DNA of 64,000 nucleotides from contig NZ_JAPJBQ010000010.1 of assembly GCF_026421305.1 (NCBI RefSeq), positions 1 to 64,000 on the forward strand. Reading direction: 5' to 3'. Under the pieces are notes generated by a model. The model was given only the letters and a program-made list of their open reading frames with translations, was not told the DNA's origin and searched no databases. Within the stretch, counting starts at the first letter, position 1, and each line of letters starts with the position of its first letter. Of this stretch, positions 2,132-19,699 are shown piece after piece. Source of the stretch: Dyella silvae (GTDB lineage: Bacteria; Pseudomonadota; Gammaproteobacteria; Xanthomonadales; Rhodanobacteraceae). Position numbers and translations under genes: made by a program.

Positions 2132-2145
2132 CGGATCTGTGAAAG

Positions 2146-2169: not shown

Positions 2170-2248
2170 GCTCTTGTTGCCGGCTCTTAAGCCAGAATAC
2201 CGGGCCGAATGACTCGCTTGCCAAACGTTCTGAGGGGAGAGAGCGACG

Positions 2249-2665: not shown

Positions 2666-2671
2666 TGAAGC

Positions 2672-2695
2672 GTTCGCTTCCGACCCACGGCGGAC
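2672..2695 (+). repeat. 24-base imperfect palindrome, copy 5
   Basis: GTTCGC / TTCCGACCCACG / GCGGAC. It starts 6 bases after the preceding stop codon. Confidence 0.8.
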
Positions 2696-2725
2696 ACTGG
2701 GAAAATTGGCCACGAAGGAGGCGTA

Positions 2726-3016
2726 GTGGTTAAGGCAACCGAGGCACAGTCCCGAGAGATCCGAAAGCGGCGGAACCGTTTCTTTCCAGCCTTCTTTGCG
2801 CTGGCATTTCTGTGGTTCTGCGGTTTTCAGCTGGTGGATTGGCTATGGGGCGGGCGATGGTCAGATCTCTACGGTATTTCAAGTTTTGTAGTTCTAATTG
2901 GTCTGGTGCTTTTTGTCTGCCCGAATTATTTCCGCTGTCCTGTCTGCGGGAATCACCTCTCAAGGGGAAGCTATTGGCGCAAATGCGATGTATGCGGCAC
3001 GGAGTTTGATGTCTAA
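2726..3016 (+). CDS. membrane protein with C-terminal zinc ribbon
   Basis: 96 residues with a GTG start; the AAGGAG ribosome-binding site 5 bases upstream decides it. A basic N-terminus (REIRKRRNR) precedes two hydrophobic helices (about residues 19-38 and 50-65). The C-terminus holds CPVC and CDVC, about 17 residues apart, a zinc-ribbon arrangement. It inverts the layout of the gene at 1466, where the ribbon is N-terminal. A copy of the 24-base repeat follows 7 bases after the stop. Function unknown. Confidence 0.65.
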   Translation: MVKATEAQSREIRKRRNRFFPAFFALAFLWFCGFQLVDWLWGGRWSDLYGISSFVVLIGLVLFVCPNYFRCPVCGNHLSRGSYWRKCDVCGTEFDV

Positions 3017-3023
3017 ATCAGGT

Positions 3024-3047
3024 GTCCGCTTCCGACCCAAAGCAGAC
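3024..3047 (+). repeat. 24-base imperfect palindrome, copy 6
   Basis: GTCCGC / TTCCGACCCAAA / GCAGAC. It starts 7 bases after the preceding stop codon. Confidence 0.8.
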
Positions 3048-3097: not shown

Positions 3098-3208
3098 ATG
3101 AAGCTTCGAGTGAGTCGTTCGATCCTGATTCCACTGGTGCTATACCCTGTCATCTGGGGCGTTAGCTATCTGGTATCCGGCAGGCTGGGCGATTTTCGGC
3201 GCGGGTGA
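3098..3208 (+). pseudogene. truncated small membrane protein
   Basis: ATG at 3098 opens a 36-codon frame that reads MKLRVSRSILIPLVLYP and continues as one clear transmembrane helix. It looks like the N-terminus of another small membrane protein. The last dozen codons overlap, in a different frame, sequence that clearly encodes FG-GAP repeats (from about 3160), so the original 3' end of this gene seems to have been replaced. I infer a deletion or recombination junction near 3150-3170. Confidence 0.4.
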
Positions 3209-3839
3209 CATTAACGGTGATGGAAAGGCCGACCTGCTCTGGATCAACAAGTCGACCAACCAGGTTGCCTATTGGCTGATGGACGGCACCAATCGAATCG
3301 GTTGGTACGTGACCTCTTATGCAAGTGGCTACTACCCTGCAGCTACCGGAGATTTCGACGGTGACGGTCTGGTGGACATCATGTGGACCAGTGCAAAGAA
3401 CGATTTGTACGTGTGGCTTGGCAATGCAAGAAAATCCACCGGTTTCACTCCGAAATTTGTAACCAACTATCCCGCCGGGTGGTCCATCGTCGGACGCGGA
3501 GACATTGACGGCGATGGGCGAGATGACCTCATCTGGATGCAGAGCTCTGGTACGAGCTGGGGCTACTGGCTGATGAACGGTGCGACCATTAAAAGCACGA
3601 CTATCGACGCCGTATCAGCGGGGGAGACTCTTGCGGCCGTCGGCGATTTTTCGGGTCGCGGCTTTGCCGATCTCGTTTGGAACAACAACGGGGTAAGCCT
3701 GGATGTGTGGACAAATACCAGCGGGCTTCAAGGGACGCAGCTGAACATCAGCTTTAGCCGCGGGGGGGTGTTTCCAGGCGTCGATGCCAGCATGCCGGTG
3801 TTCAACAGCGGCATACCTCCTGCAACGGTTACTCATTGA
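3129..3839 (+). pseudogene. C-terminal FG-GAP repeat remnant
   Basis: The frame is open from 3129 and from about 3160 encodes repeats of the type GDINGDGKADLLW, GDFDGDGLVDIMW and GDIDGDGRDDLIW, each with a calcium-binding DxDGDG loop, followed by YWLMDG / YWLMNG units. These are FG-GAP (VCBS) beta-propeller blades. The same blades, in the same order and with a similar end (..TH), form the C-terminus of the S53 peptidase at 4097-7387 on the other strand. No start codon or secretion signal precedes the first blade; the first ATG, at 3279, lies inside a blade. I read it as the 3' remnant of a paralogous secreted protein. Confidence 0.65.
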
Positions 3840-4096: not shown

Positions 4097-7000
4097 TCAG
4101 TGCGTCGGTGTGTAGCCCGCCGTGGCTGCACCCTGCAGGAGCGTGGGCTGCACTTTGGCACCAGCCGGGATGGCCAGCGGCACGCCGTTGGGGTCGGTCA
4201 CGCGATAGGACTGGAAGCCGTTACCGTTGCTTCGCCATTCCCACACGTCACCCGCAGTTCCAACCCACAGGATGTCGGCGAGGCCATCGCCGTCGTAGTC
4301 GGCGATCGATGCCATCGAGTAGCCCGGGGTGACATTCCACACGTTCTGGCTGACCACAGAGAATCCGTTCATGACCCACCAGCTCATCTGGTGCGAGGTC
4401 TGGTTGATCCAGATCAGATCGGTCTTGCCGTCGCCATTGACGTCACCCGCTCCGTACAGCACAAAGCCCGGTGGGTGGTCGGCAATCGCGCGGCGAACGA
4501 AGTCGCCGGCCTGATTGTTGATCCACACATAGACGTTGTTGTTGTTCGGATTGGTCCAGACGATATCGGCGTAACCGTCACCGTTGACGTCCGCAATCGT
4601 CGGAACCCAACCCGACGCTGCCGCGAGCGGCGTCATCAGCGGTTCCACGGCGAAGTGGTACTGGCGGCCGCCAAGTTTGAAGAACAACGACAGGTCGAGC
4701 TGCCACCAACCGATCTGGCCGGTGCTGTCGTTACGCCAGAGGGGCTCGTCCTTGCCGATGCCATCGAAATCGCCGGCACCCACCAGGGTCCAACCTGGCG
4801 AATACACGCTGCCGACCTGATGGTAGATGTAACCGTTCTGGCCACCATTACCCTGCGAAAGCCACACGTACAGCAGATTGTCCGGCCCCGTCCAGGCCAG
4901 GCTGGCCGTGTTGAATCCCGCAGCCATCCACCCTGGCGACGTGTCGTTCATTTCCCAGTGCTGATAGAAGGCACCGATGGCGCCGATGGTGTAACCCTTT
5001 GCAATCGACTGCGAGTGCACCTGCATCGCGGTACTACCCTTCATGGCGATGTCGGTGAAAATGCCCTTCACCGGATCGACCAGTGCGATGTCGCTGTAGC
5101 CATCGGCACCAAACCCATAGGGGTTGAGGAAATCGCCGGGCGATGCGTAGCCGCGCTGATGAGGCGTGTCGTAAGCCACCACGGCCTTCACCAGATTGGC
5201 GGCATTGATCGTGCCCAGGCCGGTTGCGTAGTCGTAACCTGCATTGGTCAGCCATGCCGGTGCCAGCGTGGTATCGCCGCCGTGACTGACGACACCGAAG
5301 TGGTTGCCAGCCGCGCCGCTATAGCAGCTGGAGGTGCCTGCGTAGCAAGGTTCGTCGATATCGCCCTGGGTCACGTCGTAGAACACGCAGTCGCTGCCGA
5401 CGGCGCTGCCATTGGACGAGTTACAGGCGTTGAGGCCAGCCTGGTTCGGCGAGGCATTGGTGCCGTATTCCTTCTCCGCAATCCCGTAGAACATCGGAGC
5501 GATGTTGCCGTGGGACTGGCCAGCCGCCTGGTTGATCAGCGCCTGGATGCCTGCCATGGCGGGCGCGGCAAATGAGGTGCCACCGGCGGAGTTGAAGAGG
5601 ACGTTGTCCGGGTTGCTGTAGTCACAAGCGGTGCCGCCTGCCGCCGGGTCGGACATGCAGAACACCAGCGCATGACCATACAGGCCATTGGCCGCAAACA
5701 ACGCTACGTCCGGCACCATGCGCGTATTGTTCTGCGAGGAGCCGTAGATGCCCGCCTGCCAGCTGGGCTGCGACCACATCACGCTAGGGCCGCCACTGCC
5801 GCCTCCCGTGTTCAAGAAGCGCTGTGCGGCTGCGTTATTGCATGCGGTGACGCCATCGCTGAGCTTGAGGATCGCGTCCAGCTTGCTGCTGGCGCACGAG
5901 TCGTTCCAGGTCTGTTCCGGAATGTAACCGAAGGCCGATTGCCCGTAAGGCAGATTGGTATCGGTCCAGTATTGGGACGTCTGGTGGTAGTCATCGAAAT
6001 CCGTGCCACCCACCGCCACGTTGAAGGGCGTGGATGCCATGGTGTTGACGTTGATGCCGAACTGCGCGGCACGCTGGTTCTGGTCACACCCTGCCGAACC
6101 GGCATCGCCCGATGCAACGTAAACGGTGACACCCTGTGCGGCCGCCTGCTGCCAGATCAAGCCCGCTTCGCTGGTCACGTCCGTGATGCTGAGAATTTCG
6201 CACTCGCCATAGCTGAGGCTGAATACGGCCGGCGGTGGTGCCGCGGTGTTGTTGAGCAGATTCAATGCGGCCGTGAACGCACCAAAGGTCGGGCTGTTAC
6301 TGTCATCGCAGGAGGCAAACACGATGGTGGCGTCGGGTGCCGCAGCACCAATCCATTCGGCGTCCAGCGCTGCCTCGCCCTCGTCGCCATTGGTTCCCGG
6401 GTCCGGACAGCTGGTGTCACCGGTGAACGCAATGGGATTGACGTAATTGACCGCACCTGTGGCATTGGCAGGCAGGAAGGCCTGGCGGAACGTTGCAATA
6501 TCGGCAGGGAGTACGTCGGTGCGCTCCAGCACAGCGACGGTCTGTCCCGCGCCGCGAATTGGCGTGGACTGACTCCACAACGGCGCGACGTTGTAGATCG
6601 TGTTGAAGTCTGCCGGAACGACATCGTAGGTCGCCTTCGGATCGACCGTGCCTGGTGGGACGGTGAACTCCGGGCTGCTGGCCACTTGCGACCACTTGCC
6701 GGTCTTCTTGTTCTTATTGACGACACCGACGTTGTGGTACAGCGGCTTCGGGAAGAAGTTGTCCAGTCGGGCGACGCCCGCCACCACGGGAGAGAGTGCT
6801 TCGGGAATACTCATGTCGCTGACGTTGGCGAAATGGTTTTCACCGTTGAGCGTGAAGCTATGCAGCTGGGTATGGAACGCCCGGCTGACGGCCCCCGACG
6901 TGCCGGAGAAACGAATCATGACGCCCGACGGCATCACCTTGTCGACCTTCAGGCCCTGGGATGCCAGCCAGTTGGTGACTTGCTTGATGTCCGATGCCTC

Positions 7001-7387
7001 CGGACCAAACATGGTTCCGATCTGGCTCGCCGTGAGCCACTTGTGATAGTTCGGCGAGCTTGGGTTGTTGAGCTGATTGACGTAGGCGTCGAAGCGCGAC
7101 TGCTTGTCGGGGCCGCGCTTCAACAGCAGCGTCATGTTGTGAATCGCCTTGCCATCGGCCAAGGCGCCCTTGTCTGTGGCCTTGGTGGTTCTGGGCGAGC
7201 GGCTGCCTGGCACTGTGCTCAGTTGCGCGTTGTCGACCGTCTTGGTGATGCGTGGGGCATCCGGCTTGCTGCTGGGCGACATCGCCGCCTGCGCCGATGC
7301 CGCCTGTGAAACCAGACTTCCCCCCAGTGCGAATGCCATGGCTACCGCCCATGGCCCCGCGCTTGTGTATCGATATCGGGTTTGCAT
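4097..7387 (-). CDS. secreted S53 (sedolisin) peptidase with FG-GAP domain
   Basis: The 1096-residue product is exported: basic start MQTRYRYTS, a hydrophobic core, and an AQA-like cleavage site near residue 34. A pro-kumamolisin activation domain (about residues 70-215) precedes the S53 catalytic domain (about 260-760). The serine-carboxyl residues are visible: Glu338 and Asp342 in EGEAALDAEW, oxyanion Asp428 in ASGDAGS, and Ser605 in GGTSFAAP. Its end has the DYATGLG calcium-site motif. The last 300 residues are FG-GAP blades (GDVNGDGKTDLIW and others), likely for binding polymer or cell surface. The internal ATG is preferred because AGGGAGGGG precedes it and a signal peptide follows. Such enzymes are acid-acting endopeptidases. 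It stands alone and divergent from a sensor kinase. Confidence 0.93.
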   Translation of the reverse strand: MQTRYRYTSAGPWAVAMAFALGGSLVSQAASAQAAMSPSSKPDAPRITKTVDNAQLSTVPGSRSPRTTKATDKGALADGKAIHNMTLLLKRGPDKQSRFDAYVNQLNNPSSPNYHKWLTASQIGTMFGPEASDIKQVTNWLASQGLKVDKVMPSGVMIRFSGTSGAVSRAFHTQLHSFTLNGENHFANVSDMSIPEALSPVVAGVARLDNFFPKPLYHNVGVVNKNKKTGKWSQVASSPEFTVPPGTVDPKATYDVVPADFNTIYNVAPLWSQSTPIRGAGQTVAVLERTDVLPADIATFRQAFLPANATGAVNYVNPIAFTGDTSCPDPGTNGDEGEAALDAEWIGAAAPDATIVFASCDDSNSPTFGAFTAALNLLNNTAAPPPAVFSLSYGECEILSITDVTSEAGLIWQQAAAQGVTVYVASGDAGSAGCDQNQRAAQFGINVNTMASTPFNVAVGGTDFDDYHQTSQYWTDTNLPYGQSAFGYIPEQTWNDSCASSKLDAILKLSDGVTACNNAAAQRFLNTGGGSGGPSVMWSQPSWQAGIYGSSQNNTRMVPDVALFAANGLYGHALVFCMSDPAAGGTACDYSNPDNVLFNSAGGTSFAAPAMAGIQALINQAAGQSHGNIAPMFYGIAEKEYGTNASPNQAGLNACNSSNGSAVGSDCVFYDVTQGDIDEPCYAGTSSCYSGAAGNHFGVVSHGGDTTLAPAWLTNAGYDYATGLGTINAANLVKAVVAYDTPHQRGYASPGDFLNPYGFGADGYSDIALVDPVKGIFTDIAMKGSTAMQVHSQSIAKGYTIGAIGAFYQHWEMNDTSPGWMAAGFNTASLAWTGPDNLLYVWLSQGNGGQNGYIYHQVGSVYSPGWTLVGAGDFDGIGKDEPLWRNDSTGQIGWWQLDLSLFFKLGGRQYHFAVEPLMTPLAAASGWVPTIADVNGDGYADIVWTNPNNNNVYVWINNQAGDFVRRAIADHPPGFVLYGAGDVNGDGKTDLIWINQTSHQMSWWVMNGFSVVSQNVWNVTPGYSMASIADYDGDGLADILWVGTAGDVWEWRSNGNGFQSYRVTDPNGVPLAIPAGAKVQPTLLQGAATAGYTPTH

Positions 7388-7644
7388 ATCCCCTCCCTTA
7401 ACTAACGGAAAAAAATGCCCGTGCCAGGTCACGCAAAGTGACCCGACATCCACGCGCTTTAACGATCTACGGTCGATCCCCCCGCCACATGGAGATGTCA
7501 TGGCGATGACATTCCAGGCCGCCTTCGCAACCTAGGCGAACAGACTGTTCACCGTCACGCACGACAATTCATCTCGACTCGCCAAATCTCACCGATCAAT
7601 ATGGGCGGCCCGGCCCGTTCCGGGGATCAAGCGAATGGGCCATC

Positions 7645-9174: not shown

Positions 9175-9190
9175 ACGCCGCCCGGCGACG

Positions 9191-9916
9191 TCAGATTTGC
9201 ACCAGCACGTAGCCCTCACCGTGAACTGCGCTCAGCGGGAGCGGTATGCCGAGAAGCTGCTGTACTTTTTTGCGCAGCCGGTGGATGAGCGAATCGAGGC
9301 GGTGAGGGTCGAAATCGTAGATGTTCGATGTGAGAACTTCGATAAGCTCCTCGCGGGATGTCACGTCATTGGACTTCTCGAAAAGCTTTGCGAGGATCCG
9401 GCCTTCCGTTTTCGTCAGCGCCACCACACCGCCGGTCGGCGAGAGCAGGCACCAGCCACCGGCATCAAGCCGCCAGCGTCCCTGGGGTGCCGGCGCTGCG
9501 GTCCGAAGCCGACGGACGAGGCTATAGAGAGTGGCTGCCAGCAGATCGACGTCTATCGGCTTCGTCAAATAGGTATCAGCACCTTCGTTGAGCCCGCGAA
9601 TGCGATCGGCCGTGGCGTTGCGCCCGGTCAGCATGACGATGCCCACGTCGCTCATCTGCGCTCGTAAGCGCCGCGCAAGCTCGAAGCCGTCCGCATCCGG
9701 CAGGCCCACATCGAGCACCACGACTTCCGGGCGCCGCGACGGGATCAGGGCGTCGAGCGCAGCCGCACTTCCCACGGCGGATACGTCGAAACCAAAGCGT
9801 CGCAACTGCGGCACCAATACGTCGTCCCGCAGCACCTGGTCATCTTCCACTAACAGAACGTGCAACGGCGCCCCCTCCTGGCGCTCCGTCGGCTGATTCG
9901 CAATGGTGTCACTCAT
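9191..9916 (-). CDS. OmpR-type response regulator
   Basis: 241 residues. The receiver domain (about 17-130) has acidic pair Glu24/Asp25, phospho-acceptor Asp69 in VVVLDVGLP, the Thr of MLTGR and Lys of YLTKPID. A winged-helix DNA-binding domain follows (about 145-240), with LTKTEGRILAKLFEK, HRLDSLIHRLRKK and GEGYVLV typical of Trans_reg_C. It faces the kinase at 7645-9174 tail to tail with 16 bases between them. Target genes cannot be inferred. Confidence 0.9.
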   Translation of the reverse strand: MSDTIANQPTERQEGAPLHVLLVEDDQVLRDDVLVPQLRRFGFDVSAVGSAAALDALIPSRRPEVVVLDVGLPDADGFELARRLRAQMSDVGIVMLTGRNATADRIRGLNEGADTYLTKPIDVDLLAATLYSLVRRLRTAAPAPQGRWRLDAGGWCLLSPTGGVVALTKTEGRILAKLFEKSNDVTSREELIEVLTSNIYDFDPHRLDSLIHRLRKKVQQLLGIPLPLSAVHGEGYVLVQI

Positions 9917-10484
9917 TCTGTGCCGTTCACGCCATCAAGTTCGTCATGTCGAAGAGTCGCCGATCCGAACTGGCTATACCGTCTCATCAAGGTTATTCGA
10001 CCCCCAGGCAGAGCGATAACGCCAGGGGTGAAACCGCGATGGCGGCTGTGATCCGAACAGTTACGCTATCACAACATCTCGGATCAGGTTCTGGAGAGAC
10101 CTGTTCAAAGGCCTGGGCAAAATGGGTGTATGTGGCTCATAGAGCTTGACTGGACCTCTGACGCCAGGTAGGTCCGCTTTCGACCTGAAGCGAACATCAG
10201 CACCGCCCTTCGGCGCGGAAGCGAAACGTGGCGGCACCAGACATTGGGGGCGTCTATGTTGGACCGGCGCCGCGCGACTGATCGCCAGCCAGGTGCCCGA
10301 AGGGACGTGATCGCGGTGGGCAATTCTTTATCGGAGCGAGGCGACAGTTCACAGGAGTTATGGAAGCAGCCGCGCTGACACGGCATACTTCTTGCGCTGG
10401 ACCATTTTGGAGTACTAAGCGCGGCCTTGCGCCATGTCGCAAGCCTACGGGGGCTTAGGGCACTATTTCTAGGGATGACAAGCC
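9917..10484. other. intergenic stretch, no gene seen
   Basis: 568 bases between the divergent response regulator and the glycan operon. Both promoters should lie here, but I cannot place them with confidence. The only structure I see is one copy of the dispersed palindrome at 10172. Confidence 0.5.
10172..10195 (+). repeat. 24-base imperfect palindrome, copy 9
   Basis: GTCCGC / TTTCGACCTGAA / GCGAAC. It lies away from the 0.5-4 kb series, in the leader region of the glycan operon. Confidence 0.65.
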
Positions 10485-11465
10485 GTGCAAGCAGCTTCCG
10501 GTCTTGGTGATCACACATCGCGCGCGCCTGCGGCGCGTACCTGTGCGCTGAGCATAGTAACCACCCTGTATCGATCCCAGGCTTATCTGGAGCGCTTCAT
10601 CGCCGCGTGTGCTGAGGCCGCGCAGGCAGTAGGAGTGGACGGTGATTACGAAATCGTCTGTGTCGACGACGGCTCGCCGGATAACTCGGTCGAGGTTCTG
10701 AGGTCACTTCGCGAGGTTTATCCACAGATTCGCATCGTTGAGCTGTCGAGAAACTTTGGCCATCACCACGCTGCCGTTGCAGGCCTGCAATGTGCACTGG
10801 GCCACAGGGTTTTCCTCATCGACTGCGACCTGGAGGTCGATCCGCGCGAACTGGTGACGTTCTGGAAAACGCTTGAGGAACAGAACGCCGACGTGGTGTA
10901 CGGGTATCAGGAGATGCGAAAGGGCGGGCTCGTTGAGCGTCTGGCTGGCGGATTGTTCTGGCGCATCTTCAACATGCTGAGTGATACGCACGTTCCCGAA
11001 AACGTCATTACCGAGCGGCTGATGACGAGCCGCTATGTCGACGCTTTGACGTCCCTGGGGGACAAGCATCTATTTCTGGCAGGCATGATGTACTGGGCAG
11101 GGTTCGTCCAGATCGGCCTCCCGGTCGCCAAGGGGCAGCGGGCCGGTGCATCGTCCTACACGCTGCGCAAGCGCCTCTCCTTGCTCGTTCGTGCGATCAC
11201 CTCCTTTTCGGCGGTGCCTCTTTATGTGTGCATCTGGATCGGTGTCGCCGCGCTTGGCATGGCGTCGGTCAATGCTGGCTACGTTGTCGTGCGCAAGCTG
11301 ATTCATCCTGCATCGACACTGACGGGTTTCCCGACGATTGTTGCGTTGCTGACCGCCATGTTTGGCTTTCTGATGCTTGGACTAGGCATCGTGGGCCTCT
11401 ATGTGGCCCGCATTTTCGTGCAGACACAGGGGCGACCCTTGTTCATTATCAAAAATATCGAGTAG
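10485..11465 (+). CDS. polyprenyl-phosphate glycosyltransferase, GT2 (GtrB/DPM1-like)
   Basis: 326 residues. The GT2 catalytic domain shows SIVTTLYRS, the nucleotide-binding CVDDGSPDNS and the metal-binding LIDCDLEVDP. Two C-terminal membrane helices (about 240-262 and 278-312) end in GLYVARIFVQTQGRP, the signature of GtrB/ArnC-like enzymes. These transfer a sugar from a nucleotide donor to undecaprenyl phosphate on the cytoplasmic face. The start is taken at GTG 10485; the N-terminal 20 residues are poorly conserved in such proteins, so a later start is possible. First gene of a seven-gene operon, 19 bases before the next. With the SMR-type flippase and the GT-C protein downstream it suggests a three-component glycosylation system. 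Confidence 0.9.
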   Translation: MQAASGLGDHTSRAPAARTCALSIVTTLYRSQAYLERFIAACAEAAQAVGVDGDYEIVCVDDGSPDNSVEVLRSLREVYPQIRIVELSRNFGHHHAAVAGLQCALGHRVFLIDCDLEVDPRELVTFWKTLEEQNADVVYGYQEMRKGGLVERLAGGLFWRIFNMLSDTHVPENVITERLMTSRYVDALTSLGDKHLFLAGMMYWAGFVQIGLPVAKGQRAGASSYTLRKRLSLLVRAITSFSAVPLYVCIWIGVAALGMASVNAGYVVVRKLIHPASTLTGFPTIVALLTAMFGFLMLGLGIVGLYVARIFVQTQGRPLFIIKNIE

Positions 11466-11484
11466 TTCTCGGGGAAACTTTTTT

Positions 11485-12225
11485 ATGTCCATTGAGCAAG
11501 ATCGCGACGCGTACATCCCCGGCTTTGCCTATTACGACGACAACATTGCCCTGCTGCGCGCAACGCTGGAGCAATTGCTTCGTCGTACCGGGCATCTTGA
11601 TTCAATGCGAATGCTCAGCCTTGGCGTGGGGCATCGCTATGTCGTCAAGGGTCTTATCGACTCCCTTGGTGCTCGTCTGAAGCGCCATGTGATCGTCGAG
11701 GGATCTCCGGACATCATCGAGCTATTCAATAGCGAAATCGCGCCCCCCGCCCATGTTGAGCTGGTGCACTCCTACTTTGAGGAGTTCACGACGCCGGAGC
11801 GATTCGACGTTATCGAGATGGGCTTCATTCTCGAGCACGTTGATGATCCGGCGTTTGTTCTTCGCCGGTTTCGCGAGTTCCTCGCGCCGGAAGGGCGCAT
11901 GATGATTGCGGTGCCGAATGCCCATTCGTTGCATCGTTTGATCGGCTACAGCGCGGGCCTGATGAAGGACCTTCATACACTGAGCGAGGCCGATATTGCA
12001 CTTGGTCATCGCCGCTACTTCGATCCTGCTCAGCTGGACGAGTTGCTGCAAAGTTGCGGTCTCGAAGTGGTCGGGCGTGCGGGCTTGATGCTGAAGCCAT
12101 TGACGACGTCGCAGCTGAAGTCCTTGAGCCTGGATGAGCGCGTACTTTCGGCTATGAATGAAGTTGGGTATGCACTTCCTGAAATCTGCAACGGCATCTT
12201 CGTCGAAGTGCGCAAATGCGACTGA
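11485..12225 (+). CDS. class I SAM-dependent methyltransferase
   Basis: 246 residues, start MSIEQDRDAY, with CGGGGAA upstream as ribosome-binding site. The SAM-binding region is modified (MLSLGVGHRYVVKG instead of a Gly-rich loop). The following acidic strand VIVEGS, motif EMGFILEHVDDP and the post-motif LAPEGRMMIAVPNAHSLHR fit methyltransferases of the type 11/23 folds. HSLHRLIG is typical of methyltransferases in glycan clusters. Likely role: methylating a sugar or sugar-linked group. It overlaps the next gene by 10 bases, so the two are probably translationally coupled. Confidence 0.85.
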   Translation: MSIEQDRDAYIPGFAYYDDNIALLRATLEQLLRRTGHLDSMRMLSLGVGHRYVVKGLIDSLGARLKRHVIVEGSPDIIELFNSEIAPPAHVELVHSYFEEFTTPERFDVIEMGFILEHVDDPAFVLRRFREFLAPEGRMMIAVPNAHSLHRLIGYSAGLMKDLHTLSEADIALGHRRYFDPAQLDELLQSCGLEVVGRAGLMLKPLTTSQLKSLSLDERVLSAMNEVGYALPEICNGIFVEVRKCD

Positions 12226-13865
12226 ACGTGCTTCTGGTCGCCGGCGGAGGCTTCCAAGGGCAGAGCTTGGTCGACGCCATCAGGCTGGGGCAGGATGTTC
12301 GCGTCATCGTCGCGGATAGTGTCGCGGATAATATCGGCAGGTTTGTCGCGGATTGCTATCGCGTGGCGCCGCCGCTTAGCGACGAGCGCTCGTTTAGAGA
12401 GTTTATAGAGGCGCTCGTGCAGGAAGAGCGCGTCGATCTGGTGCTTCCTTGCACCAATCGTGAGCTCGTGGCGCTCGCAAGTATCCGCGACAGTCTCGAG
12501 AAACTTGGCGCGCGGGTTGCAGTGTCGGAGCGTAGTTTGCTGGATATCCTCGCGGACAAACTTGCCGTGTACCAGGCGCTGCAAGCGGCCAATATTCCAG
12601 TTCAGCGCGTGGTGCCATTGACGGCCGAAGCGACGCTGCCGCTTTTCGGGAAGCCGCGTTCGGGGTGGGGCGGAATAGATACCCGGACACTGCGTACCGC
12701 CGAAGATCTGAACGCTATCAATCTGGTGGAACTTGCTTCCAGCCATTGCTGGGTTCCGTGGCTGGAGCACTTTGAGGAAGTTTCCGCAGATTTCGCCATC
12801 GGCTTCGGTAGAGAAATATCGCGCATCACTTTGCGGCGGCGGGTGCGGACGTCGGGTGGGTTCGCTGTCATCAGCGACTCGATACACGATGAATCAGTGC
12901 ACGGAATCGTCAGAGAGGTCGCCGATTGGCTGGCTCACCGTGGCGGCGTCGGCATCTTCAATGTGCAGGTTCTTCGTGGCCAGGACGGCGCTCTGTACGT
13001 GTCGGATATCAATCCCAGGCATGGCACCTCGAGCGGGCACGCTGCAGCTGAGGGCAATCATCTCGTTGCCTTTCTTATGCAAGGAAAGCAGCCGGAATAT
13101 ATTCGCCCCGTCCGAACGGTAAGGGAGCTTGGCATGCGTGCCATCCCCCTTCCCGAAGGGACGGCCTGGGCCGGCGTCGTGTTTGATCTGGATGACACGC
13201 TGATTGACCACAAGCGTTGGATGATGGACAGACTGCGTCTGGCCAGCGTCGCCATGGCGTCGATAGTCGACGCCGGTAGCTTGCTCCGGGCGGGTTACAT
13301 TGCCGTCGAAGAGGGGCCGCACGATCGACTGATCGACATCATTGTTGATCGGCTTGGGATTCCGCAACACCGCGATCGCTTGCTCGAGGCCTATCGATCC
13401 GCTGTACCGGCGAGGGCCGAAGTATTTCCAGAGGTGCGCGACGTGCTGAGAGAGCTACGTCGAATGGGCATACGCATTGGCCTGCTGACGGACAATCCGC
13501 CAGCGTCGCAGCAAGCCAAATTGCGCGCGATGGATGGCATGGAGCAGATGTTTGACGCAGTAGTCTTTTCACGCGAGCACGGTGGAGAGAAACCTGGCAA
13601 GCAGGGGTTTGACGAAGTGGCATCCCGCCTTGGGCTGCCGCCATCATCGCTGTTGATGGTAGGGGACCACCCTTGGCGCGATGCCATAGGTGCGCTGGAG
13701 GCGGGCTATGCGGCTTGCATGCTGGTTTCACGCCAAGGCACACGCTTTAACGTAAATAGTGCGCTATTAGGCGAAGTCTTTTTCGACGTATCGCCACGCA
13801 TTTGGTCAGACCGTGACCTCAGGGCGCTGCCCTTTATCTTTAATCACGGCAAATCAGGGTTGTAG
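12216..13865 (+). CDS. ATP-grasp ligase fused to HAD hydrolase
   Basis: 549 residues with two domains. Residues 1-310 are an ATP-grasp ligase of the CarB/PylC type: N-terminal fold starting LNVLLVAGGGFQGQSL, lid region LFGKPRSGWGGIDT, and metal/ATP-binding end VSDINPRHGTSS. Residues 318-545 are a haloacid-dehalogenase domain: motif I VVFDLDDTLIDHK (Asp324, Asp326), motif II LLTDNPP, a Lys in HGGEKPGK and motif IV VGDHPWRDA. ATP-grasp enzymes join a carboxylate to an amine via an acyl-phosphate, so amide attachment to an amino sugar is a reasonable guess given the WecE aminotransferase downstream. The HAD half could remove a phosphate from substrate or product. The fusion is unusual; substrate unknown. 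Confidence 0.85.
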   Translation: MRLNVLLVAGGGFQGQSLVDAIRLGQDVRVIVADSVADNIGRFVADCYRVAPPLSDERSFREFIEALVQEERVDLVLPCTNRELVALASIRDSLEKLGARVAVSERSLLDILADKLAVYQALQAANIPVQRVVPLTAEATLPLFGKPRSGWGGIDTRTLRTAEDLNAINLVELASSHCWVPWLEHFEEVSADFAIGFGREISRITLRRRVRTSGGFAVISDSIHDESVHGIVREVADWLAHRGGVGIFNVQVLRGQDGALYVSDINPRHGTSSGHAAAEGNHLVAFLMQGKQPEYIRPVRTVRELGMRAIPLPEGTAWAGVVFDLDDTLIDHKRWMMDRLRLASVAMASIVDAGSLLRAGYIAVEEGPHDRLIDIIVDRLGIPQHRDRLLEAYRSAVPARAEVFPEVRDVLRELRRMGIRIGLLTDNPPASQQAKLRAMDGMEQMFDAVVFSREHGGEKPGKQGFDEVASRLGLPPSSLLMVGDHPWRDAIGALEAGYAACMLVSRQGTRFNVNSALLGEVFFDVSPRIWSDRDLRALPFIFNHGKSGL

Positions 13866-13873
13866 GGGTTCGT

Positions 13874-14566
13874 ATGCGCGTTGCGGCTATTCAGTCGAGC
13901 TACATTCCCTGGAAGGGGTATTTCGACATCATCCACGACGTGGATGCCTTCATTTTTTACGATGATTTGCAGTACACAAAGCGCGATTGGCGCAGTCGCA
14001 ATAGCATCAAAACGCCTTCGGGTCTCCAGTGGCTGACCATTCCGGTGGGCGGAAGCACTGACCGGTTGATTTGCGATGTTGCGATCGAGGATTCGTCCTG
14101 GCAGCAGAATCATTGGACGCGCCTGAAGCACAGCTATGGGCGGGCACCCTACTTCAGTTACTACGCTCCCTTGCTTGAAGAAGTGTACCTGGCGCAGCGG
14201 TGGAGCAACTTGTCGGTTCTGAATCAGCAAGTCACCATGCGGATTGCTCGTGAGTGCCTGAATATCACGACGCGCTTCCTGGACTCCCGCGAGTTCGAAG
14301 CCCAGGGGCGAAAGTTGGACCGATTGGTCGATCTGGTGGTCAAGGCAGGAGCCAGTCATTACATTTCGGGGCCGTCCGCGAGGTCGTACATCGACATGGC
14401 GCCGTTCGATGCGGCGGGGATCACAGTGGAGTTCAAAGACTACGGAAACTATCCGGAGTATGAGCAGCTTCATCCGCCTTTCAGTCATCAGGTCAGCGTT
14501 TTAGACCTGTTGTTTCATGTTGGACCCAATGCGCCCTGGTATATCTGGGGCTGGCGAGGAAGTTGA
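13874..14566 (+). CDS. WbqC-like family protein
   Basis: 230 residues. It begins MRVAAIQSSYIPWKGYFD and contains FYDDLQYTKRDWRSRNSIKT and LTIPV, the hallmark N-terminal region of the WbqC family, at about the family length. It has no signal peptide or membrane segment. WbqC proteins occur in O-antigen and other surface-glycan loci next to aminotransferases and are thought to help modify amino sugars, but the reaction is not established. It lies 8 bases after the ATP-grasp/HAD gene and 1 base before the next gene, so it is clearly part of the operon. Confidence 0.9.
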   Translation: MRVAAIQSSYIPWKGYFDIIHDVDAFIFYDDLQYTKRDWRSRNSIKTPSGLQWLTIPVGGSTDRLICDVAIEDSSWQQNHWTRLKHSYGRAPYFSYYAPLLEEVYLAQRWSNLSVLNQQVTMRIARECLNITTRFLDSREFEAQGRKLDRLVDLVVKAGASHYISGPSARSYIDMAPFDAAGITVEFKDYGNYPEYEQLHPPFSHQVSVLDLLFHVGPNAPWYIWGWRGS

Positions 14567-14567
14567 C

Positions 14568-14930
14568 ATGGGTTACGTCTTTGTTGCTCTGACGATCCTG
14601 CTGACCGTATATGGGCAGCTCGTGCTTAAGTGGCAGGTCGGGCGGGCGCCGCCGCTTCCATCCGAGGCAGCACCCATGGCGATGCACCTGCTGTCGCTGT
14701 TGCTTAGGCCGTGGGTTCTGAGCGGGCTCGCTGCTGCGTTTCTCGCTTCCATGTGTTGGATGGCGGCCGTTTCGCGTTTTGAAATTAGCCGTGTGTATCC
14801 GTTCATGGCGCTTAACTTTCTGATTGTCGGCTTTGCTGCCGTGCCTCTCTTCGGTGAAACGCTGACGCTCTCAAAGATCGCCGGTTTGATCCTTGTCGTT
14901 CTTGGCCTCGTCATATCAAGTCAAAACTAG
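14568..14930 (+). CDS. SMR/EamA-type small flippase subunit
   Basis: 120 residues with four hydrophobic helices (about residues 2-20, 40-62, 68-90, 96-115). The pattern YGQLVLKWQVG..ISRVYPFMALNFLIVGFAAVPLFGE.L...K..GLILVVLGL is that of small-multidrug-resistance/EamA proteins such as ArnE/ArnF, which flip undecaprenyl-phosphate-linked aminosugars. GAGGAAG precedes the ATG. Placed after a GtrB-like enzyme and before a GT-C protein, it most likely carries the lipid-linked sugar across the inner membrane (inference). Confidence 0.85.
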   Translation: MGYVFVALTILLTVYGQLVLKWQVGRAPPLPSEAAPMAMHLLSLLLRPWVLSGLAAAFLASMCWMAAVSRFEISRVYPFMALNFLIVGFAAVPLFGETLTLSKIAGLILVVLGLVISSQN

Positions 14931-14937
14931 TCGACCC

Positions 14938-16074
14938 ATGATTCCTTTCAACAAGCCCTATATGACGGGTTGTGAGCTGGACTACATCCAGCAGGCGCAC
15001 GCCAATGGCCATCTTTCCGGCGATGGTCCTTTTACCCATCGCTGCCAAACGTGGCTCGAACAGACGATAGGTTGCCAAAAGGCGCTGCTCACGCATTCGT
15101 GCACCGCTGCGCTTGAGATGGCAGCGATGCTTCTGGATCTGCAGCCCGGTGACGAAGTGATTATGCCGTCGTATACGTTTGTATCGACGGCTAACGCATT
15201 CGTGCTGCGAGGCGCGGTTCCTGTATTCGTCGATATTCGTGAAGACACGCTCAATATCGACGAGGCGCGGATTGAAGCAGCTATTACGCCGCGAACGCGC
15301 GCCATATGTGTCGTGCACTATGCAGGCGTTGGCTGCGAGATGGGCGCGATCATGGCGATCGCCAACCGTCACGGTCTCTACGTTATAGAAGATGATGCCC
15401 AAGGCATCCTTTCCACCTACCGGGGTCGTCCCCTCGGAAGCTTTGGCCACCTCGCGGCGCTGAGTTTTCACGAGACCAAAAATCTCATCAGCGGGGAGGG
15501 CGGCGCTCTTCTGATCAATGACCCGCGTCTGGTCGAGCGCGCTGAGGTTCTGCGGGAGAAGGGGACTAACCGCAGCAAGTTTTTCCGCGGGCAGGTGGAT
15601 AAGTACACCTGGGTGGACATTGGCTCTTCGTACTTGCCGGGCGAGATTGTGGCGGCTTTTCTGGCTGCACAGCTGGAGCAGGGCGTCGCCATCACGAAGC
15701 GGCGGCTCGATCTGTGGGCCTCGTATCACCAGTGGGCCGAGACACATGAGTCGGCGGGGCAGCTCAGGCGCCCCATCGTTCCGGCCCACTGCGTTCAGAA
15801 CGCGCACATGTACTACATGCTGCTACCCGATCTGGCTGCAAGGACGGCATTTTTGAGCGAACTGCGACGACTCGAGGTCGGCGCGGTATTCCACTACGTC
15901 CCGTTGCACTCGGCGCCTGGTGGTGTCCGGTACGGAAGGGTCCATGGGTCCATGGACCATACCGACAACTTGAGCGAGCGACTCGTGAGAATGCCATTCT
16001 GGGTCGGGCTTGAAGACCATCTTGGCACCGTCTTCGACGCGGCAACGAGGGCGCTGGAGACCTGCCATGCTTGA
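14938..16074 (+). CDS. wecE: dTDP-4-amino-4,6-dideoxygalactose transaminase (WecE type)
   Basis: 378 residues, starting MIPFNKPYMTGCELDYI as WecE/RffA proteins do. PLP-enzyme features: THSCTAALEMAA near the cofactor, VIEDDAQG with the Asp that contacts the pyridine nitrogen, and SFHETKN with the Schiff-base Lys. EKGTNRSKFFRGQVDKYTW and VFHYVPLHSAP are close to E. coli WecE. The reaction makes dTDP-Fuc4N from dTDP-4-keto-6-deoxyglucose, using glutamate. The rest of the dTDP-sugar pathway (RmlA/RmlB) is not in the window. It supplies an amino sugar that the neighbouring ATP-grasp, WbqC and methyltransferase genes could modify. Confidence 0.93.
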   Translation: MIPFNKPYMTGCELDYIQQAHANGHLSGDGPFTHRCQTWLEQTIGCQKALLTHSCTAALEMAAMLLDLQPGDEVIMPSYTFVSTANAFVLRGAVPVFVDIREDTLNIDEARIEAAITPRTRAICVVHYAGVGCEMGAIMAIANRHGLYVIEDDAQGILSTYRGRPLGSFGHLAALSFHETKNLISGEGGALLINDPRLVERAEVLREKGTNRSKFFRGQVDKYTWVDIGSSYLPGEIVAAFLAAQLEQGVAITKRRLDLWASYHQWAETHESAGQLRRPIVPAHCVQNAHMYYMLLPDLAARTAFLSELRRLEVGAVFHYVPLHSAPGGVRYGRVHGSMDHTDNLSERLVRMPFWVGLEDHLGTVFDAATRALETCHA

Positions 16075-16302
16075 GCGCCAGCCGTGATGCACGGAGCTCA
16101 CGGCCGGTGGCGGTCAGGCGCGAGGATGATGGGCAAGTCCTTGCAAGCGCCAGATCGTCATGTTGGCTGATGACAGTGATCGCTCCGCGCCGCTGTCGCC
16201 GCGTTTCGATATGTGCCGGGTGCGGCCCTTATCCATAACGGCTTTTGGCATCACGGCGCGACTTGCCAAATGTTGGTTTCACGATTGCTAGGGGTGTGGG
16301 GA

Positions 16303-18597
16303 ATGATGCGAGTGGGTACCTGGCACTTCGGCATACGTCGCGCCACTGGATATTGGCAGGCGGCCGCGGCGGGTTTGCTCTTTCTGGCTGTCTTTGCCGT
16401 CGTCGGCAAGGTATGGCGGATTCATCTGCACATACCGCTCGACTACTCGTCGGATGCGTTTGAAGTTCTCGCTCACCTGACTCACAACTACATCAGCAAC
16501 GATGTAACTGAGCGGCTGTTTGCTCCGCTCAACGCCATGCATGCATCCGCCTGGCAGTATGCGGTGAATGCTCTCTTTCAGTTCAACGGCAACCTTATGG
16601 TTCTTTGCCGGTGGCTGACCGGTGACGATGCCGCCGCGCTGAATCTCTATTTCTTGCTCACGTTTCCCCTGACGTTCGGTACTGCCTATTACGCCTGCTG
16701 GCGCCTGAGGCTCGAAAATCCGTACCGGTTCTGTGTGGCTATGCTCTATGCGTTTATGCCCTACCACCTGTGGCGTGGCGAGATTCACATCCTCGAATCG
16801 ACGTATCTGCTGACGCCGCTCTATATCCTGGTGCTTTTGCGATTGTGGGCAGCCCGCCCTCTATTCTGGCGCCATGACGGAAACCAATGGCAACTCCACC
16901 TGATCGATCGCGCAGCTATCGGCCCGGCGGTCCTTCTGTTGTTCTTTGGTTCCTTTCACTATTACCACCAGTTCTTCTTCGCGATCCTTGCAGGCTTCGT
17001 CGGCCTGGGGGCATGGGCCTATCGCCACAACTGGCGTCATTTCTCCTCCGCTATCGGAGTGATTGCGCTCGCACTCATGCCGTTAGTGCTGAAGGGCGCT
17101 TTGTCGGCCTGGCTTGCGGACCCGATACTGCATCTGTCTGTCATCGGATACCCGCTCGCACGGCCCGGAGAGGACGAGTACTACCCGCTCAAGATCATTC
17201 AGCTGCTTCTCCCTGTACAACACCATCGCTGGGAGTGGTTGGCCCATTTTCGCGAGGTTTACGACAATACCCGACCGCTGGTTAATGAGAACTCGTCCAC
17301 CTCTCTGGGTCTGGTCGGTGCGCTTGGTTTTGCCGTGATCGTGGCATTCGGGCTGCAGCCTGCGCGTCGCACCATGGGGGTGCTGACCAAGTTCGGTTGG
17401 GTGAGTCTGGTCATCCTCCTGGTGACCACGATGGGTGGCTTGAATACTGCGATTACGTTGGCCAGCCAGCACATCTTTGGCCTCGAATTTCCATTGTCCC
17501 AGGCTCGGGGATGGAACCGTATAGTCATCTATCTTGGCTTCTTCGCGTACTTCGGATTCTTTGTGGTGCTGCGCGGGATCAACAGGCGCGTCGAGGCTCG
17601 CTGGTCATCTCGTCATGCGCACATGGTGGCGTTCTGTGTATGCACATGCGTACTCATATTCGCTCTCTGGGACCAGGTGCCCAAGCCGTTGCAGCAGACA
17701 AAAGCGACAAAGGTCGCATTTAAAAGCGATCAGGCATTCTTTGGGGCGATGGAAGCGCATAGCGCTCCCGGCGCCTCGGTATTCCAGTTGCCAGTCATTG
17801 CCCATCACGTATCAGGTTCGGTTAACGGAGTGGACCACACGGAGGGGCTGCGTCCATTTATCAGCACAAAGGCCATGCGCTTCAGCTTCGGCGCCGATTA
17901 CGGTAGCGCGCAGTTGGATCTTCTCCACCATATAGAAGGCCTTCCTACGGAGGAGAAGCTGCGCACGCTGTGCGAGTACGGCCTGTCGACGATACTCATC
18001 CATCGGAATATGTACGCGGATCCGAAGGCGGTGGAAGATCCACTGGCTGCGTCCCTCAACGTATCGCCAGTGCAGAGCGCCGATGGTGCGTTTAGTTATC
18101 TTCCGTTGGATGCCTACTGTGCCAATCATGCCATTCGACCGATCGGGCGGGCCGCGCTGGCTGACAGGCTCGCTGCAGATGCCGTGCACTACGAAGGCAC
18201 CGATTTCCTACGCCAACTTGGAAGTGTCGTCGAGAACGGCAAGGATAAAAACTCCGTTGTGGCCGGTCGTGGAGCGGCAGGGTACTTGACCTACGGGCCC
18301 TATCGTCACTTGCCACCGGGAAGCTACGACGCGGTGTTCCATCTCACCGTCGAAGGCAACGCCGGAGATACCGTTGGCGGTATTGACGTCGATGGCGTCA
18401 ATATGGGCGTGGCAGGGGTGCTGGCGAAAGCAGATCTGACGGTCGGCGATGCCAGGACGGACAGCCTGACACTTCACTTTTCATCGTCGTCGCCAGAGCA
18501 GGTTTTTGAGTTCCGCGTTTTCGTCAACGGGCGCGGCCAAGTCACTCTGCATGGCGTGGATGTCCAACCCGTCGGAAAGAAGACCGAGAGAAGATAG
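16303..18597 (+). CDS. polytopic GT-C-like membrane protein
   Basis: 764 residues from the ATG preceded by GGGGTGTGGGGA. An N-terminal helix (LLFLAVFAVVGKVW) leads to a periplasmic loop with DYSSDAFEVLAH, where an acidic residue would sit as in GT-C enzymes. About ten further helices run to residue 490, with YAFMPYHLWRGEIHI between two of them. A soluble C-terminal domain (about 500-764) is beta-rich. The layout matches YfhO-like and GT-C glycosyltransferases that use lipid-linked sugars on the periplasmic side. I infer it is the final transferase of the operon. The 228-base gap upstream may hold a promoter. Confidence 0.7.
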   Translation: MMRVGTWHFGIRRATGYWQAAAAGLLFLAVFAVVGKVWRIHLHIPLDYSSDAFEVLAHLTHNYISNDVTERLFAPLNAMHASAWQYAVNALFQFNGNLMVLCRWLTGDDAAALNLYFLLTFPLTFGTAYYACWRLRLENPYRFCVAMLYAFMPYHLWRGEIHILESTYLLTPLYILVLLRLWAARPLFWRHDGNQWQLHLIDRAAIGPAVLLLFFGSFHYYHQFFFAILAGFVGLGAWAYRHNWRHFSSAIGVIALALMPLVLKGALSAWLADPILHLSVIGYPLARPGEDEYYPLKIIQLLLPVQHHRWEWLAHFREVYDNTRPLVNENSSTSLGLVGALGFAVIVAFGLQPARRTMGVLTKFGWVSLVILLVTTMGGLNTAITLASQHIFGLEFPLSQARGWNRIVIYLGFFAYFGFFVVLRGINRRVEARWSSRHAHMVAFCVCTCVLIFALWDQVPKPLQQTKATKVAFKSDQAFFGAMEAHSAPGASVFQLPVIAHHVSGSVNGVDHTEGLRPFISTKAMRFSFGADYGSAQLDLLHHIEGLPTEEKLRTLCEYGLSTILIHRNMYADPKAVEDPLAASLNVSPVQSADGAFSYLPLDAYCANHAIRPIGRAALADRLAADAVHYEGTDFLRQLGSVVENGKDKNSVVAGRGAAGYLTYGPYRHLPPGSYDAVFHLTVEGNAGDTVGGIDVDGVNMGVAGVLAKADLTVGDARTDSLTLHFSSSSPEQVFEFRVFVNGRGQVTLHGVDVQPVGKKTERR

Positions 18598-18930
18598 CCA
18601 GGGCAAGCGCTTCCACAGCCTCCGCTGATCGAAAATGGCACGCTGGTTCGGCTGCTGCCTGGCTGGAATGCCGATGCAGGATCGATCTTGCTTTACTCCT
18701 CGATACGCCCGACGTTGCTGGGTAGAACGCGCGCGTTCATTGCTCGTGTCATCGAAGCGTTTCAGCGCCCCAGCCGGTACCAGCCGACTTCCGTCATGCG
18801 TGACACAAGTGATGCCACGACGTCGTTTGTCGTCGATGCCTTGGGCGACGCTGCGTGCCTACTAAGGTACGCAAACGGTCTTCATAGTTCTTTACCGGCA
18901 GTACATATCGCAGCCAAACAGGCGGCCTAG
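18598..18930 (+). pseudogene. LysR-family regulator C-terminal remnant
   Basis: Directly after the stop of the GT-C gene and in the same frame, the DNA reads LIENGTLVRLLPGWNA, then ILLYSSIRPTLLGRTRAFI and EAF. This is the usual ending of LysR-type substrate-binding domains (LLPGW...YP.RR.LP...RAFIDF). No helix-turn-helix part is present, and the sequence after residue 50 loses resemblance. It is best read as the 3' scar of a deleted regulator gene, possibly marking the edge of the inserted glycan operon. Confidence 0.45.
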
Positions 18931-18979
18931 CTTGTCGTCCCGCACATCTCGTGTGTCTCGACAACGCGAAAGGATCGCC

Positions 18980-19699
18980 ATGGCTACCAGCATCGAATCG
19001 TTGCAACACCCTTCCACGCATCAGGCCAAGGCCATCCCGGCCGGTGGTGATGTCCGCCTTGCCGGGCTCGCCATCCTGACGAGCGCCATCGTATCGGTCG
19101 CCACGGTTGCGATGGATCGGGGAGCGAGTGGCAAGACTACGCAGGAGATCCTGCAAAGCATGGTGCAGATTCAGGCGTGGCATCAGAACGTGCACGTGGT
19201 CGCGATGGTCTGCATATGCGGCCTGATGTACGGCTACACCGTGCTATCCCAGCAACTGGATCTGCGGCGGGCGCCGGTGCTGATCGGGCTGATCACCTAT
19301 GCGCTGGGTAGTGCGTTGATGTTGGTGGGCACCATTCTCGACGGTTTCATAAGCACCGGCATCGCGGCGGATTTCGTCAACGGTACGCCTGAGGCGGCGC
19401 AGGCAGCGCGCTGGATGATCCACGTGGTCGAATCCGTCGCCCTGACCGACATCGCACGTGTGGCATGGGTGCTGCAGTCGGTGGCGGCCATCGCATGGTC
19501 CGTGGCCCTGTTGCGCGACGCGGGTACGCGCCGTGCGGTGGGTTACATCGGGCTGGTCGCGGGTGGTCTGCCGGCGGTGATGGTGATCGGTGCCGGTGCG
19601 CACATGGACCTGAGTGTCGTTGTTGGCACGTTGCTGCTGCAGGCCATCTGGAACGTCGCTGCCGGCGTGCTGATGTTGCGCGAGCGGTCGTCTGTCTGA
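18980..19699 (+). CDS. hypothetical six-helix membrane protein
   Basis: 239 residues from the ATG preceded by AAAGGA. After a polar N-terminus there are about six hydrophobic helices (for example LAGLAILTSAIVSVATVAM, VVAMVCICGLMYGYTVL, VLIGLITYALGSALMLVG and the C-terminal VVVGTLLLQAIWNVAAGVL). Histidines occur in the first loop (WHQNVHVV) and the central loop (WMIHVVES). No named family is recognised with confidence. It precedes the Spy-like/two-component operon by 111 bases and may or may not be co-transcribed. Confidence 0.7.
   Translation: MATSIESLQHPSTHQAKAIPAGGDVRLAGLAILTSAIVSVATVAMDRGASGKTTQEILQSMVQIQAWHQNVHVVAMVCICGLMYGYTVLSQQLDLRRAPVLIGLITYALGSALMLVGTILDGFISTGIAADFVNGTPEAAQAARWMIHVVESVALTDIARVAWVLQSVAAIAWSVALLRDAGTRRAVGYIGLVAGGLPAVMVIGAGAHMDLSVVVGTLLLQAIWNVAAGVLMLRERSSV

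Follow-up and report, generated by a model that had tools for sequence, protein, structure and literature searches.

What do seven genes near the beginning of a Dyella silvae contig make, and onto what is their product placed? The genes are plus-strand open reading frames (ORFs) at positions 10,485 to 18,597 of a 64-kb stretch of DNA (hereafter the window), with which contig C1 (97 kb) of a 4.45-Mb genome begins. We read them as a three-component periplasmic glycosylation operon of the Gtr/Arn type that would handle an N-acylated, methylated 4-amino-4,6-dideoxyhexose. This reading, derived from the genes and their predicted folds, is given a probability of roughly 0.6. The initial annotation had described seven tightly packed genes joining a GtrB-like transferase, an SMR-type flippase and a GT-C-like enzyme to a WecE-derived sugar and to amide and methyl tailoring genes (ATP-grasp/HAD, WbqC and methyltransferase), with no Wzx, Wzy or initiating transferase. 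The seven ORFs and all of these components were recovered (Table 1), and Wzx, Wzy and an initiating transferase were indeed absent from the seven genes. The tight packing was not borne out for the last gene: in gene order the intergenic gaps are 19, -10 (an overlap of the methyltransferase and ATP-grasp/HAD genes), 8, 1, 7 and 138 bp, so the GT-C gene is set off from the rest. The GTG starts assigned to that gene and to the GtrB gene are uncertain.

The lipid-linked part of the scheme is recognizable from three proteins. P0001 exceeded the cut-off of PF00535 (82 bits) and matched the 'GtrB-like' PHROG 841 (192 bits), and it fell well short of the NCBIfam cut-offs for PgfS (152 bits, cut-off 500) and ArnC (97 bits, cut-off 529). 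P0005 passed PF00892 (29.7 bits, cut-off 28.2), and its best NCBIfam model, ArnF, scored 52 bits without reaching the cut-off of 99. No Pfam, NCBIfam or PHROG match was obtained for P0007 at E 0.01. Its AlphaFold model, built from a nine-sequence alignment in which D81 is invariant, had a mean pLDDT of 60, with residues 654-794 below 50. The best fold match was AftA (Z 16.4 over 488 residues), followed by oligosaccharyltransferase (OST) catalytic subunits and PglB (14-16), PMT, AftD and ArnT (12.2), and by their entry titles rows 1 to 38 (Z 16.4 to 7.7) were all GT-C enzymes or complexes containing one. P0007 is thus predicted to fold as a GT-C transferase. Relatives were detected in 13 of 233 genomes of the family Rhodanobacteraceae, its own included, and a GtrB-like gene lay near the relative in nine of ten loci (fetched from 10 of the 12 other genomes).

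P0007 also carries an extra C-terminal domain. Residues 683-784 recur in a GT-C-like protein from a different genome (34% identity) and as the final stretch of a methyltransferase (27%), the former adjoining a gene that by eye resembles a UbiA/HAD phosphoribose synthase. The GT-C enzyme of Citrobacter youngae is described as having an extra domain that binds O-polysaccharide and is not essential (PMC11127046), and by analogy the domain of P0007 may point to a glycan acceptor. As a separate observation, the occurrences outside the operon (L107, 15367-16677; L114, 7325-9316) make this domain common to GT-C-like enzymes and a methyltransferase, and it is perhaps a new glycan-binding module. Contig C15 of the genome to which the window belongs also holds (L124, 4229-8103) a UbiA/HAD fusion (PRK08238, 666 bits), a 120-amino-acid protein with four transmembrane (TM) segments and a long multi-TM protein, which are probably a second three-component-like system, for pentofuranose.

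The donor sugar is indicated by P0006, which exceeded the curated WecE cut-offs (TIGR02379, 597 bits with a cut-off of 435; PRK11706, 592 with 375). Its closest solved proteins were two WecE-type sequences (486 bits for 4piw, and 482), then ArnB at 155 bits, and the NCBIfam ArnB cut-off (631) was not reached at 199 bits. By these family models P0006 is a true WecE, and its product would be dTDP-Fuc4N rather than dTDP-Qui4N, the C4 configuration being assigned from the family. The operon is not self-contained, as had been proposed: RmlB is encoded at 216 kb of contig C15, where rmlA, rmlC and rmlD and genes for ABC-type O-antigen export (Wzm/Wzt-like) were seen by eye, with a Wzx-like gene farther along. 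A seemingly broken DegT gene was also noted on this contig (L125, C15:485000-504900, at about 9063-10410 and 18838-19359); it consists of three PF01041 pieces, two of them with a stop, and sits in a polysaccharide-like cluster near a pilin-like gene (by eye).

Two further proteins would tailor this sugar. The methyltransferase P0002 scored 54 bits against PF13489 (cut-off 27), and in 15 other loci a relative 44-73% identical to it is flanked by GtrB and ATP-grasp/HAD. P0003 is a fusion. An alignment profile of the protein retrieved PDB 2pn1 (E 2.4e-20), and its HAD part matched PF00702 (88 bits) and HAD_2 (70 bits), with N-acylneuraminate-9-phosphatases as the nearest solved relatives. Across 13 sequences of P0003 and its relatives, G150, G152, G153, D264, N266 and R268 of the ATP-grasp part and DLDDTL (324-329), T425, K459, D484 and D489 of the HAD part were invariant, a set that would include the catalytic residues. 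Searches of plasmids also returned ATP-grasp/HAD relatives with at least 80% coverage at 26-29% identity. Among 12 distant loci matching the ATP-grasp part (L050, L052, L053, L055, L056, L058-L064), nine also encode a DegT protein. Three of them, L059, L062 and L064, have two adjoining genes for ATP-grasp and HAD in place of a fusion, among apparent polysaccharide genes. There is a described precedent for fusion of a HAD domain to an enzyme that modifies a glycan, the product of which the domain dephosphorylates (PMC11127046). In the literature searched, nothing combining ATP-grasp, HAD, aminotransferase and O-antigen appeared at a near-full match of terms. That the fusion acts as a capping ligase and phosphatase is, on this sequence evidence, a doubtful assignment.

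The fourth protein, P0004, belongs to WbqC (PF08889, 253 bits; gathering cut-off 21.3), a family whose gene was named in Shigella dysenteriae type 7/Escherichia coli O121. BshC, the enzyme to which its predicted fold is most similar, couples cysteine to an amino sugar in bacillithiol synthesis. The AlphaFold model of P0004 (pLDDT 82) aligned with BshC (4wbd) in VIA-align at Z 13.6 and a root-mean-square deviation of 3.3 over 219 of 230 residues. The other rows reached at most 8.1, the majority being nucleotidyltransferases and aminoacyl-tRNA synthetases of class I; the usual best Z of the tool for models without clear relatives is 7-8. The site of action, known for BshC and proposed here for WbqC, is in both cases an amino-sugar amine, but WbqC is less than half as long as BshC. 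The literature searched contained no paper joining WbqC to BshC among the best matches listed, and WbqC has been termed functionally uncharacterised (PMC5532660).

The genomic company of WbqC is informative in this respect. Of 200 genomes sampled from the phylum, 55 contained WbqC, and 40 contexts, part of those listed, were read (15 from the family, outside the module described below, and 25 from the phylum). A DegT match lay within the stretch in 35 of them, that of L215 being a fragment at a contig edge; for comparison, the whole 4.45 Mb genome of the window contains 10 PF01041 (DegT) matches. Five loci (L211, L212 and L226-L228) hold WecE-like, WbqC and GtrB genes and no ATP-grasp/HAD. A DNA search with the WbqC gene of L241 matched eight of 5426 genomes, all eight of them E. 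coli, over a WbqC gene and the terminal part of a DegT gene; the WbqC gene of L227 matched none. The two of these eight loci that were read are clusters annotated as O123/O186, and they encode wzx, wzy, rmlB, rmlA, DegT, WbqC, one additional protein, GNAT and MaoC. The WbqC of the cluster is homologous to P0004 (28% over 230 residues, E 4e-23 in a comparison with nine proteins). A protein of about 324 amino acids adjoins WbqC in L222, L221, L215 and one of the E. coli loci (L299, 12712-13686) and is 29-31% alike across loci. DegT accompanies WbqC in O-antigen clusters of the E. coli O123/O186 type and of S. dysenteriae 7/E. coli O121. According to a review table, E. coli O123 carries Qui4N with an N-(3-hydroxybutyryl)-D-alanyl group; S. 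dysenteriae type 7 carries Qui4N with N-acetylglycyl, and a Treponema glycoconjugate contains D-aspartyl-Fuc4N (PMC10609480). Amino acids on 4-amino-4,6-dideoxyhexoses are therefore real. The enzyme that places them could be WbqC, which would then be an aminoacyl ligase; we consider the odds of this to be even. GNAT and MaoC of the O123 cluster could make the outer acyl group, a place that ATP-grasp/HAD would fill in the present operon, which differs from the O123/O186 cluster in having this fusion and an undecaprenyl-phosphate (Und-P) route.

Conservation of the gene order supports treating these genes as a unit. Relatives of P0003 (E up to 1e-30) were present in 14 of the 233 family genomes, the present one included. 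The order GtrB, methyltransferase, ATP-grasp/HAD, WbqC (hereafter the module) was kept in 13 of 13 complete loci (the window and L023-L034), the fourteenth (L035, genome G005) being cut by a contig end; it was also kept in L047 and L051. Because 12 more family genomes show this order, the operon goes beyond a chance arrangement. An SMR gene comes next in nine of the 14 family loci and a larger membrane protein in the other five, which in the two tested (L030 and L032) was LPG_synthase_TM, a flippase-like family. No match to P0007 was found in L023-L035 at E 0.001. Instead, these loci encode different long proteins with many TM segments, either about 510-530 or about 630-640 amino acids in length. 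The ones compared with Pfam (L023, L025, L028 and L034) and NCBIfam (L023, L025, L029 and L034) had no match, and from their hydropathy these proteins are taken as other GT-C enzymes. The flippase type and the last membrane enzyme are swapped between loci while the four core genes stay.

A broader search of contigs returned 56 relatives of P0003 among 176 candidate stretches; 12 came from the family genomes again (L036-L046 and L049), and 27 matched the HAD part or a fragment only and are uninformative on the module. Luteimonas saliphila has all six core genes, but with WbqC ahead of GtrB. The remaining relatives are betaproteobacterial: that in a Burkholderiaceae metagenome-assembled genome (MAG) has no SMR match, and those in Nitrosospira and Rubrivivax MAGs are cut by contig ends. 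In the Rubrivivax MAG (L054, 1881-3263) a second ATP-grasp-like gene was seen by eye between WbqC and SMR. Pairwise distances of the genes co-vary strongly between GtrB and the methyltransferase (r 0.96) and between GtrB and ATP-grasp/HAD (r 0.95), and less so between WbqC and these three (r 0.52-0.58). The looser co-divergence of WbqC is weak evidence of a difference, since r rises to 0.71-0.78 within the family (rows covering less than 60% of the query dropped; L035 and L054 left out).

The initial annotation had also asked whether ATP-grasp/HAD and WbqC always travel with WecE, which was not the case. A WecE gene (its own or one 66-75% identical) lies within about 4.5 kb of the module in 11 of 14 genomes and 88 kb off in G141, and is thus present in 12. 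Scattering of the genes one by one in other genomes would have spoken against the proposal. For ATP-grasp/HAD it was not seen, since 13 of 14 genomes keep the core four side by side in the same sequence, but WbqC also occurs without the fusion: it was found in 29 of the 233 family genomes, among which are all 14 with ATP-grasp/HAD.

Taken as a pathway, the operon would work as follows. RmlA and RmlB, encoded elsewhere, would supply dTDP-4-keto-6-deoxyglucose, and WecE would aminate it to dTDP-Fuc4N, as the family evidence suggests. WbqC, with its BshC-like predicted fold, would link an amino acid to the 4-amine. In the step of which we are least sure, the ATP-grasp domain may ligate a second carboxylic acid, perhaps phosphorylated, onto the aminoacyl amine, and removal of the phosphate may fall to the HAD domain of the fusion; ATP-grasp/HAD would take the slot held by acyltransferase genes in other aminoacyl-Qui4N clusters. 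P0002 would methylate the product. GtrB would then load the sugar on Und-P, the SMR protein would flip it, and the GT-C enzyme would attach it in the periplasm, roles suggested by families and fold. A donor pathway of this kind we consider likely. The proposed set of Und-P-sugar synthase, flippase and GT-C enzyme is shared with Gtr-type three-component systems (Salmonella/Shigella Gtr and the C. youngae pentofuranose system, PMC11127046), and P0007 has an extra C-terminal domain just as the C. youngae enzyme is described as having a carbohydrate-binding one (PMC11127046). Unlike in those systems, the donor proposed here is a 4-amino sugar derived from dTDP, N-acylated and methylated, and made by four tailoring genes in the operon. 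If true, the cassette would bring acylated amino sugars of dTDP origin into the range of three-component glycosylation, and WbqC, a widespread family without a known job, gains a first testable one, so that the origin of amino-acid-bearing sugars could be examined directly with a single enzyme. In a bolder and rather improbable version, WbqC founds a group of BshC-like, ATP-dependent amino-sugar aminoacyl ligases, and capped aminoacyl-Fuc4N, a dipeptide-like sugar, passes from Und-P to secreted FG-GAP-repeat proteins.

Several observations weigh against this pathway. GtrB-type enzymes of the side-chain prototypes are described as using UDP-sugars (PMC11127046), and a dTDP donor would therefore be unusual. 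WecE is missing from two of the 14 module genomes (G064 and G094), in which the best DegT is 33-37% identical and located away from the module. The ATP-grasp part of P0003 stays just below the Pfam cut-offs (PylC-like_N, 25.3 bits of 27; ATP-grasp_3, 21.8 of 23.2). DegT is absent from five of the 40 WbqC contexts (L214, L233, L240, L246, which is short on one side, and L250). As for the E. coli comparison, the O123/O186 label is that of the annotator and covers O186 too, the DegT of the cluster is only 33% identical to P0006, and O123 bears Qui4N, not Fuc4N (PMC10609480). Foldseek gave no match for P0004 under 0.001, with BshC absent from the 50 best rows, and no PF10079 (BshC) match was found at E 0.01. 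HHalign of 60 WbqC against 21 BshC sequences (one of them, L148, wrongly framed) returned a probability of 0.8%, with six unrelated families at 0.1-2.4%, and with 14 sequences the probability was 0.3%. The link between WbqC and BshC is therefore one of predicted fold alone. Homology at the level of sequence was dropped, both HHalign comparisons being non-significant. A C-terminal Y-x-[SGA]-G-P motif was likewise rejected as a link (25 of 60 WbqC but only one of 21 BshC), and a likeness by eye between the consensus stretches GpGEiaY and GPxARxY, compared with L148 left out, was not counted as evidence.

A surface polysaccharide is our first, if tentative, choice of acceptor; secreted FG-GAP-repeat proteins are possible and follow closely behind, and something other than either is less probable again. 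Under the protein alternative the operon would be dedicated to glycosylation of secreted FG-GAP-repeat proteins and proteases, much as the Pgf system glycosylates surface adhesins in Streptococcus mutans (PMC11983588); this may hold, at odds clearly below even. Among NCBIfam models P0001 matches PgfS best, and Pgf likewise combines membrane proteins with surface protein substrates, but the match is far from the PgfS cut-off and the sugar differs. FG-GAP-motif ORFs occur in seven of 17 module loci (11 ORFs), against one of 34 family controls and none of 25 phylum controls, the single positive control being L105, which holds the closest relative of P0007. In L029 and L024 these ORFs are co-directional with the module and about 110 and 160 bp from it, whereas the FG-GAP proteins of the window lie 3 to 7 kb off with other genes between. 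The 14 module genomes hold 20, 57, 15, 23, 19, 13, 8, 28, 38, 11, 35, 13, 19 and 11 PF13517 matches, and six module-less genomes of the same genus 0, 4, 4, 2, 0 and 0, although these six were hand-picked from the 16 of the genus. At least eight of the 14 (G000, G047, G060, G064, G094, G141, G197 and G201), among the matches listed, which stop at weak matches, have one within 15 kb of the module, where at most 2.35 were expected (P 0.0005). However, the idea arose post hoc, the motif was loosened after a stricter two-motif scan had given L048 only, the 15-kb distance was chosen after looking, FG-GAP genes cluster, and the statistics ignore the kinship of the genomes. The last membrane enzyme also differs among strains, as expected if polysaccharides vary, and the C-terminal domain of P0007 recurs in a GT-C-like protein whose gene adjoins one probably for pentofuranose, as well as in a methyltransferase. 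The literature searched held nothing linking FG-GAP with glycosylation at a near-full match of terms. We regard the association of FG-GAP genes with the module as real, as a statistical link to which no cause is assigned; it names concrete proteins to inspect.

Two further explanations keep the product on the lipopolysaccharide (LPS) or in a polysaccharide made elsewhere. The sugar genes might serve an O-antigen encoded at 205-235 kb of C15, with GtrB, SMR and GT-C separate or a minor branch, which we hold to be unlikely. The rml, export and farther Wzx-like genes of that contig favour it, and the module adjoins rml genes in L025 and L028 (by eye). On the other hand, GtrB co-diverges most closely with the methyltransferase and ATP-grasp/HAD, as if it read the finished sugar, and in the loci read, judging by hydropathy, a flippase and a large membrane protein still stand last or almost last in the cassette. 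The earlier view of the operon as a decoration system and not an O-antigen cluster stands for the seven genes; the second case that it named as refuting, a polysaccharide pathway elsewhere in need of the sugar, may apply to the genome in view of the C15 genes. Less likely still is a modification of lipid A or core LPS along the lines of the Arn pathway, with another amino sugar and the amide cap in the role of the ArnA formyl group. ArnB, ArnC, ArnEF and ArnT are likewise an aminotransferase, lipid-phosphate transferase, SMR flippase and GT-C enzyme for a 4-amino sugar, and the best models of P0005 are ArnF and then ArnE, ArnC and ArnB are among the first three matches of P0001 and P0006, and ArnT is among the fold matches of P0007. 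Yet none of the Arn cut-offs is reached, AftA, OST, PglB and PMT outrank ArnT, and P0007 has an extra C-terminal domain. The seven genes include none like ArnA or ArnD, and the WecE-type dTDP substrate, amide cap and methylation set the operon apart. We thus retain the three-component reading with a dTDP-derived amino sugar.

Table 1. Features of the operon and of the neighbouring FG-GAP genes (positions in the window).
Feature	Position	Strand	Basis
P0001, GtrB/ArnC-like polyprenyl-phosphate glycosyltransferase, 326 amino acids	10485..11465	+	PF00535, PHROG 841, NCBIfam PgfS/ArnC
P0002, class I methyltransferase, 246 amino acids from ATG 11485	11485..12225	+	PF13489 (Methyltransf_23)
P0003, ATP-grasp domain, residues ~1-295	12216..13100	+	PylC-like_N, ATP-grasp_3, PDB 2pn1, invariant residues
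P0003, HAD phosphatase domain, residues ~316-508	13161..13739	+	PF00702, HAD_2, invariant motifs
P0004, WbqC family, proposed amino-sugar aminoacyl ligase	13874..14566	+	PF08889, BshC-like AlphaFold model
P0005, small EamA/SMR-type flippase, ArnF-like	14568..14930	+	PF00892, NCBIfam ArnF
P0006, WecE, dTDP-4-keto-6-deoxyglucose 4-aminotransferase	14938..16074	+	TIGR02379, PRK11706, solved WecE 4piw
P0007, predicted GT-C transferase with accessory C-terminal domain (~683-784)	16213..18597	+	Fold matches of AlphaFold model
P0008, FG-GAP repeat protein or fragment without N-terminus	3129..3839	+	PF13517, 59 bits over 3279-3839
P0009, pro-kumamolisin-type protease with C-terminal FG-GAP repeats, candidate acceptor	4097..7501	-	PF09286 110 bits, PF01839 59 bits, PF13517 56 bits

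The GC content of the operon is 57.8%, compared with 63.3% downstream, where the lowest window of equal length has at least 60.5%; the initial 4 kb of the window is likewise low (54-60%). This low GC would fit an arrival of the operon by horizontal transfer. With its flanking genes as a guide, no clear empty site was found in the genus. Near the contig start, between small ORFs at 546-3047, five direct copies (at most three mismatches; none expected) of a 24-base near-palindrome, GTCCGC..GCGGAC, were observed, which look like an intergenic repeat or a cassette array.

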